Part shown: positions 20,662 through 58,636 of the stretch, in pieces
Layout of the letters: each line of letters opens with the position of its first letter
Numbering within the stretch: position 1 is the first letter of the stretch
Source: Mycobacterium marseillense
GTDB lineage: Bacteria > Actinomycetota > Actinomycetes > Mycobacteriales > Mycobacteriaceae
NCBI RefSeq assembly: GCF_010731675.1
Contig: NZ_AP022584.1
Coordinates: 930,001 to 994,000 of the forward strand
DNA length: 64,000 nt
Direction of reading: 5' to 3'
The notes under the pieces: model-generated
The model's input: the letters and a program-made list of their open reading frames with translations, nothing else
Told to the model about the DNA's origin: nothing
The model's database searches: none
Position numbers and translations under genes: made by a program

Positions 20662-21141
20662 TCAGCTGGGTGGCCGCGACACGCACTGCGCCGAGTACAG
20701 CTCCACGCCCAGCTTGTCCATCAACTCCAGCTGCGTCTCGAGGTAATCGATGTGCTTTTCCTCGTCCGCCACGATCTCCTCGAACAGCGTGGCGGTGGTG
20801 GAATCCTGCTTGTCGCGGCACAAGACGATGGCCGGCTTGAGGCGCTCCATCACCTCATACTCGATGGCCAGGTCGGCCTCGAATTGCTCACGCAAGGTCT
20901 GACCGATGCGCAGCGAGAAGAGGCGCTGGTAGTTCGGCAACCCGTCGAGCAACAGGATGCGGTCGGTGATCGCCTCGGCGTGTCGCATCTCGTCGAAGGA
21001 CTCGGCGCGGGTGTGCTCAGCTAACTCGGTGAAACCCCAGTTGTCCTGCATCTTGGAGTGCAGGAAGTATTGGTTGATCGCGGTGAGCTCGCTGGTCAAC
21101 TGCTCGTTGAGTAGACGCAAAACTTCCGGATCCCCTTGCAT
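20662..21141 (-). CDS. bfrA: Bacterioferritin BfrA
   Basis: This is a 159-residue ferritin-like subunit from ATG 21141, preceded by GGAG. Ferroxidase ligands Glu18, Glu51, His54, Glu94, Glu127 and His130 all appear in the expected places, and Met52 (haem ligand between subunits) is present in DEMRHAE. The 24-mer oxidises and stores iron with haem. Upstream in-frame codons exist but the length equals known BfrA. It is divergent from bfd, with a tandem iron box 170-210 bases upstream of this start; in M. tuberculosis IdeR activates bfrA from such a pair. Confidence 0.95.
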   Translation of the reverse strand: MQGDPEVLRLLNEQLTSELTAINQYFLHSKMQDNWGFTELAEHTRAESFDEMRHAEAITDRILLLDGLPNYQRLFSLRIGQTLREQFEADLAIEYEVMERLKPAIVLCRDKQDSTTATLFEEIVADEEKHIDYLETQLELMDKLGVELYSAQCVSRPPS

Positions 21142-21308
21142 TTTCACTCCTACGGTGTCTGCGGCTGTCATGTTCGGCCGCGGTCGGCGCGCTGGGCTGA
21201 AGCGCACAAACCTGGGCTGTAGCAGCACTTTGCCACGGCCGCCGCAAATGTTCTAGCAAGGTTTGGCTGCACTCAGTGGGGTATCGAGCTAGTCTAATCA
21301 CCTCGTTG

Positions 21309-21327
21309 TTAGGTTAGACTTCACTAA
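21309..21327. promoter_or_regulatory. IdeR iron box 1 in the bfrA-bfd intergenic region
   Basis: TTAGGTTAGACTTCACTAA matches the 19-base iron box TTAGGTTAGGCTAACCTAA at 15 positions by eye. It is the first of two copies spaced 24 bases apart. Tandem boxes upstream of bfrA are known to allow activation by iron-loaded IdeR, unlike single boxes over promoters, which repress. Confidence 0.8.
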
Positions 21328-21332
21328 TCAAG

Positions 21333-21351
21333 TTAGGTTAGACTCCACTAA
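21333..21351. promoter_or_regulatory. IdeR iron box 2 in the bfrA-bfd intergenic region
   Basis: TTAGGTTAGACTCCACTAA differs from box 1 at one base and has the same orientation. A partial third copy may exist near 21290-21299 (TAGTCTAATC). The pair lies between divergent bfrA and bfd and may serve both. Confidence 0.8.
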
Positions 21352-57456: not shown

Positions 57457-57879
57457 TCAGCTGTCGCGCAGCTCGAGATTCTGCAGGCGCACCTGGCCTC
57501 GGGCGACCACGCGATCGTCGTCGTCGGTGATGGTGACCAACCACAATTGCTGGCGCCGGCCGCGGTGGATCGGTTCGACGACGCCGTAGACCATGCCCGA
57601 GCCGATCGAGCGCAGGAAGTCGGTGTTGTTGTTGACTCCCACGACATTTCCGCCACCACGGGTGGCCAGCCACGTGTAGGCCGCGACGCTGGCCATGCTT
57701 TCGATCATCGAGCAGTAAACGCCGCCGTGCACGAGCCCCATCGGCTGCAACAGCTTGGGCGTCACCTCGAGCTGCGCGCGGGCCCCGTCGGGGCTGAGTT
57801 CGGTGAATTGCAAGCCGATCTCGCGGTCGAAGGGCGCGGAGAAATGCGGCGGAATGATCGGTTCCTGCGGCTCTGGCAC
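57457..57879 (-). CDS. PaaI-type hotdog thioesterase (Rv1847-like)
   Basis: From GTG 57879 there are 140 residues, as in Rv1847. Hotdog fold with GLVHGGVYCSMIESMASVAAY (about 49-69) and VVGVNNNTDFLRSIGSGMVYGVVEPIHRGRRQQLWLVTITDDDDRVVARGQVRLQNL. It hydrolyses acyl-CoA thioesters. In M. tuberculosis this gene was reported in the iron-responsive IdeR set; here an iron-box-controlled small RNA is read toward it from the same strand, so some transcript could extend into it. It reads toward ndh. Confidence 0.87.
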   Translation of the reverse strand: MPEPQEPIIPPHFSAPFDREIGLQFTELSPDGARAQLEVTPKLLQPMGLVHGGVYCSMIESMASVAAYTWLATRGGGNVVGVNNNTDFLRSIGSGMVYGVVEPIHRGRRQQLWLVTITDDDDRVVARGQVRLQNLELRDS

Positions 57880-57949: not shown

Positions 57950-58052
57950 AAAACGGCTGAGCCCCGTGCACAAGGCACGGGGCTCGCCGATCGAGTAGAC
58001 CGGGGGTCACTGCAGCCCTCAGGACTCTCACGCGGTCCGTTATCGCTCGACT
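57950..58052 (-). ncRNA. mrsI: Iron-responsive small RNA MrsI (homologue of ncRv11846)
   Basis: On the minus strand a promoter TTGCAA-N18-TATGCT (-35 at about 58087-58082, -10 at 58063-58058) predicts a start near 58052. An intrinsic terminator, stem GAGCCCCGTGC/GCACGGGGCTC (57959-57985) with loop ACAAG in plus orientation, then a U-run at 57953-57950 follows. The predicted transcript is about 103 nucleotides and has no open frame. An IdeR-type box lies between the -35 and -10. Place (between Rv1846c and Rv1847 homologues), strand and length match MrsI, an iron-starvation-induced small RNA of M. tuberculosis that represses bfrA and hypF. Identification is from synteny and memory, not from alignment. 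Confidence 0.75.
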
Positions 58053-58060
58053 CGATTAGC

Positions 58061-58079
58061 ATAGGCAAGGCTGCCCTAA
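58061..58079. promoter_or_regulatory. IdeR iron box within the mrsI promoter
   Basis: ATAGGCAAGGCTGCCCTAA matches the iron-box consensus at 14 of 19 positions by eye. It lies over the spacer of the predicted small-RNA promoter, where iron-loaded IdeR would repress, so the RNA would appear only under iron limitation. Confidence 0.72.
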
Positions 58080-58216: not shown

Positions 58217-58636
58217 ATGGCCAAACTGACACGGCTGGGGGATCTGGAACGGGCCGTCATGGACCATTTGTGGTCCACGCCCGAACCTCAGACGGTTCGC
58301 CAGGTCCATGAGGCGTTGTCGGCGCAGCGCGACCTGGCCTACACCACGATCATGACCGTGCTGCAGCGGCTGGCCAAGAAGAACCTGGTCTCCCAGATCC
58401 GCGACGACCGGGCGCACCGGTACGCCCCCGTGCACGGCCGCGACGAACTGGTCGCCGGCCTCATGGTGGACGCCCTCGCGCAGGCCGAGGACTCCGGGGG
58501 CCGGCAGGCCGCGCTGGTGCACTTCGTCGAGCGCGTCGGCGCCGACGAGGCCGAGGCACTGCGGCGCGCGCTCGCCGAACTGGAAGCCAATCAACGCAAT
58601 AACTTGCCATCTGCTGGCGCGGGCCCGGAGGGCTGA
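58217..58636 (+). CDS. blaI: BlaI-type winged-helix transcription repressor
   Basis: This is 139 residues. Winged helix: LGDLERAVMDHLWSTPEPQTVRQVHEALSAQRDLAYTTIMTVLQRLAKKNLVSQIRDDRAHRYAPV (about 6-72), then a dimer helix region (about 85-130). BlaI represses beta-lactamase and respiratory genes in M. tuberculosis and is released after cleavage by the adjacent membrane protease. The protease gene follows after 14 bases. Matches Rv1846c. Confidence 0.92.
   Translation: MAKLTRLGDLERAVMDHLWSTPEPQTVRQVHEALSAQRDLAYTTIMTVLQRLAKKNLVSQIRDDRAHRYAPVHGRDELVAGLMVDALAQAEDSGGRQAALVHFVERVGADEAEALRRALAELEANQRNNLPSAGAGPEG

Follow-up and report, generated by a model that had tools for sequence, protein, structure and literature searches.

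Does the gap between the divergent blaI and thioesterase genes of Mycobacterium marseillense give rise to an iron-regulated small RNA, and if it does, which RNA is it and how would it find its targets? The locus lies in a 64,000-nt stretch, bases 930001-994000 of contig 1 of the 5.5-Mb genome, which is called the window here. As the original prediction had it, the gap measures 337 nt, counted from the blaI ATG at 58217 to the likely GTG of the thioesterase gene at about 57879, a putative start. The BlaI protein of the window shares 99% identity with its M. colombiense counterpart.

Table 1. Positions of the features discussed, numbered within the window
Feature	Position	Strand	Basis and remarks
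4HBT thioesterase (Rv1847-like)	57457..57879	-	Pfam PF03061; putative start codon; downstream of MrsI
MrsI small RNA, ~102 nt	57950..58051	-	start deduced from -10 spacing; predicted ends
Intrinsic terminator	57950..57989	-	11-bp stem, bulged A, 4 more pairs, UUUU
Conserved seed hairpin of MrsI	57998..58037	-	outer GACCG/CGGUC, inner GUC-CUG / CAG-n-GAC; covariation
7-nt apical loop AGGGCUG	58013..58019	-	last six, GGGCUG, are the presumed seed
-10-like element TATGCT	58058..58063	-	sequence read
Predicted iron (IdeR) box TTAGGGCAGCCTTGCCTAT over promoter spacer	58061..58079	-	sequence and conservation
-35-like element TTGCAA	58082..58087	-	sequence read; TTGC at the same place in many homologues
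BlaI-type repressor (Rv1846c-like)	58217..58636	+	Pfam PF03965
bfrA, bacterioferritin	20662..21141	-	NCBIfam TIGR00754 above cut-off
bfrA leader hairpin, 7-nt loop UCAGCCC (CAGCCC at 21199-21194)	21186..21208	-	proposed MrsI partner; R2 match; same loop in the unconstrained fold of the leader
Second CAGCCC in bfrA leader, little stem	21214..21219	-	L131, -78, score 3.5

The minus strand of the gap carries the elements expected of a regulated transcript. The sigma-A-like promoter of the original prediction is present as TTGCAA and TATGCT with a spacer of 18 nt and is upheld by conservation; several MrsI loci of other genera have TTGACA there as a -35-like element. The iron box was said to lie exactly over this spacer. 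It does cover most of it, but the fit is not exact, as the box reaches into the first 3 nt of the -10 element. Among 99 homologous loci, near-duplicates counted, 73 share the first 18 nt of the box unchanged, and the box departs from the IdeR consensus at 6 of 19 positions. Upstream of the RNA in 29 loci of other genera, an iron-box-like site differs from this consensus at 5.1 positions on average, vs 9.7 after shuffling. At the other end, the perfect 11-bp terminator stem stands as predicted (GAGCCCCGTGC/GCACGGGGCTC, 57985-57959), while the U-run amounts to merely four U. Eight of the 11 stem pairs vary on both sides between species, and the region folds better than its dinucleotide shuffles (z = -3.0). 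A consensus scan of the region returned 0 promoters and 0 terminators, so that the case for both elements rests on their conservation.

The transcribed part had also been described as free of open frames, which turned out to be wrong: ORFs of 273 and 89 aa on the minus strand and of 128 aa on the plus strand cross it. The two minus-strand ORFs could be taken to mean that the region codes for a small protein. However, in the 64 named loci in which the sRNA and the thioesterase gene are adjacent, the phase between them is split 25/20/19, and the frame running into the thioesterase, the one minus-strand frame to which this count applies, is closed in 56 of the 64. The base pairs of the region, in addition, covary. 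Because of the phase spread and the closed frames, a protein gene in the region is very unlikely, and the chance that the locus encodes a small minus-strand protein appears practically negligible.

The position of the element points to a known RNA. Excerpts of the published work place ncRv11846 of M. tuberculosis at 2096766-2096867 on the plus strand, between blaI and Rv1847 (PMC8628891), give it a predicted terminator and an IdeR site (PMC11188477), and describe MrsI as having a six-nt seed and a 7-nt apical loop (PMC12101431). Its reported targets include bfrA, hypF, and fprA. The window RNA likewise lies in the gap between blaI and an Rv1847-type thioesterase gene and on the thioesterase strand. 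It has a predicted IdeR box at its promoter, spans about 100 nt between predicted ends, closes in a rho-independent terminator with a short U-run, and contains a six-nt seed within the seven-nt apical loop AGGGCUG, where we infer that the published seed corresponds to GGGCUG. The naming of the RNA as probably MrsI thus agrees with published ncRv11846 in position, orientation, iron box, length, and terminator. The bfrA gene, a reported target, does lie in the same window, and conservation extends past the terminator, the most conserved block of the homologues being the seed hairpin. By position, strand, iron box, length, terminator, and seed loop, the assignment of the window RNA as an MrsI orthologue is supported at the level of sequence.

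MrsI itself is already known, and the window copy is a new member. According to excerpts on MrsI/ncRv11846 of M. tuberculosis and M. smegmatis, the known RNA and that of the window share the locus, the strand, the iron box, the length of ~100 nt, the terminator, the six-nt seed, the 7-nt apical loop, and the bfrA target (PMC8628891, PMC11188477, PMC12101431). They differ in species, and added here are the covariation, the hairpin on the target side, the hemerythrin candidate, and homologues in 20 other genera. No Rfam family reaches its gathering score within the 64-kb window. Weak Rfam matches in the blaI-thioesterase gap were rejected as terminator look-alikes, among them the F6 sRNA (RF01791), which reaches 17.6 bits where its gathering score is set at 46 and matches the terminator region only.

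Instead of a free sRNA, the element might belong to the thioesterase gene, as its iron-regulated leader or attenuator, since MrsI lies less than 400 nt upstream of that gene and on its strand in 64 of the 67 named loci in which both were found. The covarying terminator, however, would end the RNA before the thioesterase gene, and two reviews (PMC8628891, PMC11188477) and an expression study report an MrsI sRNA of ~100 nt that is induced in low iron. We consider an attenuator highly improbable.

How the sRNA presents its seed can be read from the homologues. The 99 loci were first reduced to 60 by near-identity, and three decayed copies (L077, L079, L080) and one with a broken terminator (L085) were left out, giving a set of 56 genus sequences, A1. 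Here 96.2% of cells pair as the proposed structure requires, and both sides vary at 14 pairs; none of 500 shuffles reaches any of the five measures. The loop AGGGCUG is invariant in all 56 sequences, the decayed copies having been excluded beforehand. A second set, A2, holds 41 sequences, 28 of them from other genera, with L156 and L168 excluded. Its seed hairpin pairs in 96.9% of cells, 4 pairs vary on both sides (reached by 1 of 500 shuffles), and the covariation score is reached by none of 500. GGGCUG is present in 41/41 and the full AGGGCUG in 40/41, the exception being a UGGGCUG in a locus of another genus (L167). In the minimum-energy fold of the full-length window RNA, GGGC is partly paired within a competing hairpin with a 3-nt loop, for which there is no covariation.

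The same core is widespread in the genus. Both BLAST with 171 nt and a covariance model, R1, match 104 of 118 sampled genus genomes, counts that take in the genome of the window and two decayed copies. Among 80 named blaI loci, 70 have the core. It is absent from the few kb examined around the other 10, nine of which are Mycolicibacter (L096, L099-L103, L109, L112, L115) and one Candidatus M. methanotrophicum (L076). Several of the core-less Mycolicibacter loci have a thioesterase start apparently close to blaI. At L083-L095 and other fast-grower or Mycobacteroides loci, MrsI adjoins the thioesterase gene and blaI is ~1 kb off, which leaves room for an extra gene.

Beyond the genus, R1 matched 92 of 121 family genomes, or 91 once a spurious match was removed (G157, E 9.6e-4), whose locus L168 lacks the core at the match. 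Seven of these 91 belong to the genus; the other 84, out of 114 genomes sampled beyond it, span 20 of 30 other genera, and GGGCUG is kept in all 29 other-genus loci read. In 200 genomes of the order there were 31 R1 matches, 27 of them within the family, and no true copy was found outside it. The remaining four matches (G244, G336, G338, G379; E 6e-4 to 1e-3) were rejected and read as terminator hairpins because both the seed (no GGGCTG in the inspected stretch) and an iron-box-like site are absent. The R1 searches of genus, family, and order used stricter filters that lose weak matches. Taken at this sequence level, MrsI has likely spread outside Mycobacterium, to many genera of the family.

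If GGGCUG is the seed, its complement should be found in the targets. The bfrA leader of the window, to which the original prediction had pointed, contains this complement, CAGCCC, twice, and the seed duplex has an energy of -10.1 kcal/mol. In 110-nt genus leaders, CAGCCC is the commonest 6-mer of bfrA, occurring in 23 of 30, vs a mean of 3.7 and a maximum of 10 in shuffles. Control leaders contain it in 1/80 (blaI) and 13/265 (generic leaders from mechanical ORFs). A further 19 bfrA leaders of the genus, some from second copies, include 14 with the site. The second copies L264-L266 have CAGCCC, and the first copies in the same three genomes (L139, L141, L142 of G004, G052, G024) do not.

CAGCCC often occupies the loop of a hairpin, and the stem beneath it varies from species to species. 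Over 58 sites from 70 leaders, the pairing between its flanks scores 8.11, vs 5.35 +/- 0.32 for swapped flanks, with a maximum of 6.68 in 2000 swaps. A stem score of at least 8 is found in 27 of the 58 sites, vs 9.3 expected by swapping, and 31 fall below 8. For 22 further sites the score is 8.32 vs 5.17 +/- 0.49 swapped (0/5000). A target-hairpin model with a 7-nt loop geometry, R2, was built on 19 sites. Pair counts on these 19 are circular and were set aside for the 58-site and 22-site tests, because the sites had been picked for their stems. R2 scores the window bfrA hairpin, a member of its training set, at 25.5 bits, the next best match in the window reaching 14.8.

These hairpins bear on whether MrsI instead acts through an ordinary linear seed, with the target hairpins merely reflecting GC-rich leaders or exposing a single-stranded site. 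Several CAGCCC sites with little stem would suit a linear seed, as would a near-start site in L124, whose complementarity continues past the loop, and some leaders without CAGCCC (e.g. L139), in which matches close to the ribosome site reach no more than 5-6 nt. On the other hand, the stems pair better than with swapped flanks in both independent collections of bfrA sites, the 7-nt loop geometry of R2 equals that of the MrsI loop, and among 79 recurrent 6-mers none has a higher stem score than CAGCCC, the three that follow all overlapping with it. We regard a linear seed as possible but unlikely. Complementary hairpin loops are found on both RNAs by sequence, pairing statistics, and covariation, which suggests that MrsI recognises bfrA through two matching kissing loops.

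Iron-box-like repeats, TTAGGTTAGACT, occur twice at 21308-21350 of the window, between bfrA and a divergent ORF that we take to resemble bacterioferritin-associated ferredoxin. These repeats are fitting for a direct control of bfrA by IdeR, which may act besides the sRNA.

The distribution of the site follows that of the sRNA. Among 150-nt bfrA leaders, CAGCCC is found in 33 of 43 from genus genomes and in 12 of 20 from other-genus genomes with MrsI, vs 0 of 11 from genomes that lack it, five of them in the genus. The two genomes with a decayed MrsI, G114 and G074, correspond in their contig coordinates to the leprosy bacilli M. leprae and M. lepromatosis and have no CAGCCC in their bfrA leaders (0/2). 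The contrast within the genus, 33/43 vs 0/7, has a Fisher p of 2e-4 that ignores relatedness, and the species counts are not independent because the species are related. Two of the five MrsI-lacking genus genomes are incomplete (G005, 84%; G025, 80%), and the site is missing despite MrsI from 10/43 genus and 8/20 other-genus leaders. As to the decay itself, the MrsI copies of M. lepromatosis (L079) and M. leprae (L080) have no comparable terminator hairpin, and the loop is changed in M. leprae. M. uberis (L077) has kept the terminator, with the iron box and the loop altered.

Sites for RNA-binding proteins likewise tend to combine a conserved loop with a variable stem. The CAGCCC hairpin of the bfrA and hemerythrin leaders might accordingly be bound by a protein or another regulator and be unrelated to MrsI. 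Yet its loop exactly complements the invariant MrsI seed, and CAGCCC is absent from the 13 bfrA leaders examined in genomes where MrsI is missing or decayed, both leprosy bacilli included. We find such a site very doubtful and retain the kissing-loop reading.

A search of the genome of the window with R2 extends this reading to a second gene. The bfrA hairpin, a training copy, ranks first, and among the best 8 of 12 matches one other lies in a leader, that of a hemerythrin-domain gene (PF01814) from outside the training set. The other six of the best 8 were rejected, since each is enclosed in a reading frame on one strand or on both. The hemerythrin hairpin, GCGCA[ACAGCCC]UGCGC, is located 26 nt upstream of the gene. 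We sampled the best hemerythrin locus in each of 30 genus genomes, from a list of 59 places in 42 genomes. No 6-mer is commoner in these leaders than CAGCCC, which is present in 25 of 28 from genomes with MrsI (L291, one of the 28, being too short for a reading) and in neither of the two from genomes lacking it. The stem score is 10.16, vs 5.40 +/- 0.62 for Markov flanks. Against swapped flanks (9.01 +/- 0.39, maximum 10.46) the test is weak, because GC-rich flanks resemble each other across species. Three MrsI-bearing genomes of other genera have hemerythrin homologues without the site (L349, L351, L352), and it is likewise missing at second hemerythrin paralogues in the genome of the window (L357) and in G017 (L356). 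We propose from these leaders that the hemerythrin-domain gene is a second candidate target of MrsI within the genus.

Of 30 R2 loci from 13 genomes, only two, both bfrA leaders, are convincing; a few others have a possible later start, and four gave no site by the filter. In genera without a close BfrA (13 genomes of eight genera, 30 loci), there is one clear leader case and one ambiguous intergenic match, and nearly all the other loci were discarded as lying inside reading frames or having no convincing start. The clear case is the best R2 match in two genomes of one such genus (L319, L320), where a CAGCCC hairpin of 26.1 bits precedes an OYE/FadH-type flavoenzyme gene (Oxidored_FMN) by 26 nt. 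The NCBIfam matches of this gene, including that to an Fe-S flavoenzyme, fall short of the curated cut-offs, and the sequence is cut by the end of the locus. The ambiguous case is the best match of genome G126 (L323, 24.3 bits), intergenic and ~190 nt upstream of a gene for a 4Fe-4S dicluster protein. The hairpin may lie outside that transcript, because a promoter-like TTGACA comes after it. A literature search that excluded Gerrick 2018, whose gene lists could already include hemerythrin or the target structure, returned no publication on the target hairpin, on a hemerythrin target, or on MrsI outside mycobacteria.

Read together with the publications on M. tuberculosis and M. smegmatis, the promoter box suggests that iron-loaded IdeR would block MrsI transcription. 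In iron shortage, the ~100-nt RNA would be made and stop at the terminator, presenting GGGCUG in its 7-nt hairpin loop. Target mRNAs would present CAGCCC in the loop of a 5' leader hairpin, the first contact being a 6-bp loop-loop (kissing) helix, and translation may then be blocked or the mRNA decay. As an outcome, no iron would be spent on dispensable iron proteins. The final step may differ between species, because CAGCCC precedes the start by ~26 nt, close to the ribosome site, in several fast-grower-like leaders and by 50-67 nt in many others. We consider it probable that the window RNA is an MrsI orthologue under IdeR control that meets the bfrA and hemerythrin leaders by kissing loops. 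With somewhat less confidence, we favour a broader reading, in which MrsI is a family-wide iron-sparing kissing-loop RNA. CAGCCC leader hairpins would have been rebuilt with lineage-specific stems in bfrA and in the Mycobacterium hemerythrin-domain gene, and perhaps in flavoenzyme and 4Fe-4S genes of genera without a close BfrA, and lineages in which the sRNA has decayed or is absent, the leprosy bacilli among them, would have no such sites.

Two loops of ~7 nt make the first contact, as proposed here for MrsI, in staphylococcal RNAIII, OxyS-fhlA, and plasmid RNAI-RNAII. These RNAs are unrelated to MrsI, and their kissing was demonstrated by experiment, whereas we infer it from sequence. RyhB of Enterobacteria and IsrR of Staphylococcus act with a Fur-type regulator, in contrast to IdeR here, and are likened to MrsI by role. 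In excerpts of the literature they are described as iron-sparing sRNAs, as is MrsI (PMC8628891, PMC12101431).

In mycobacteria, which have no known Hfq, it is an open question how sRNAs find their targets. With a loop-loop code legible in the sequence, MrsI targets would become predictable, and here this code led from bfrA to the hemerythrin-domain gene. The proposed mechanism is directly testable in M. smegmatis. Our data extend a likely iron-sparing RNA beyond the mycobacteria alone, to many genera of the family.
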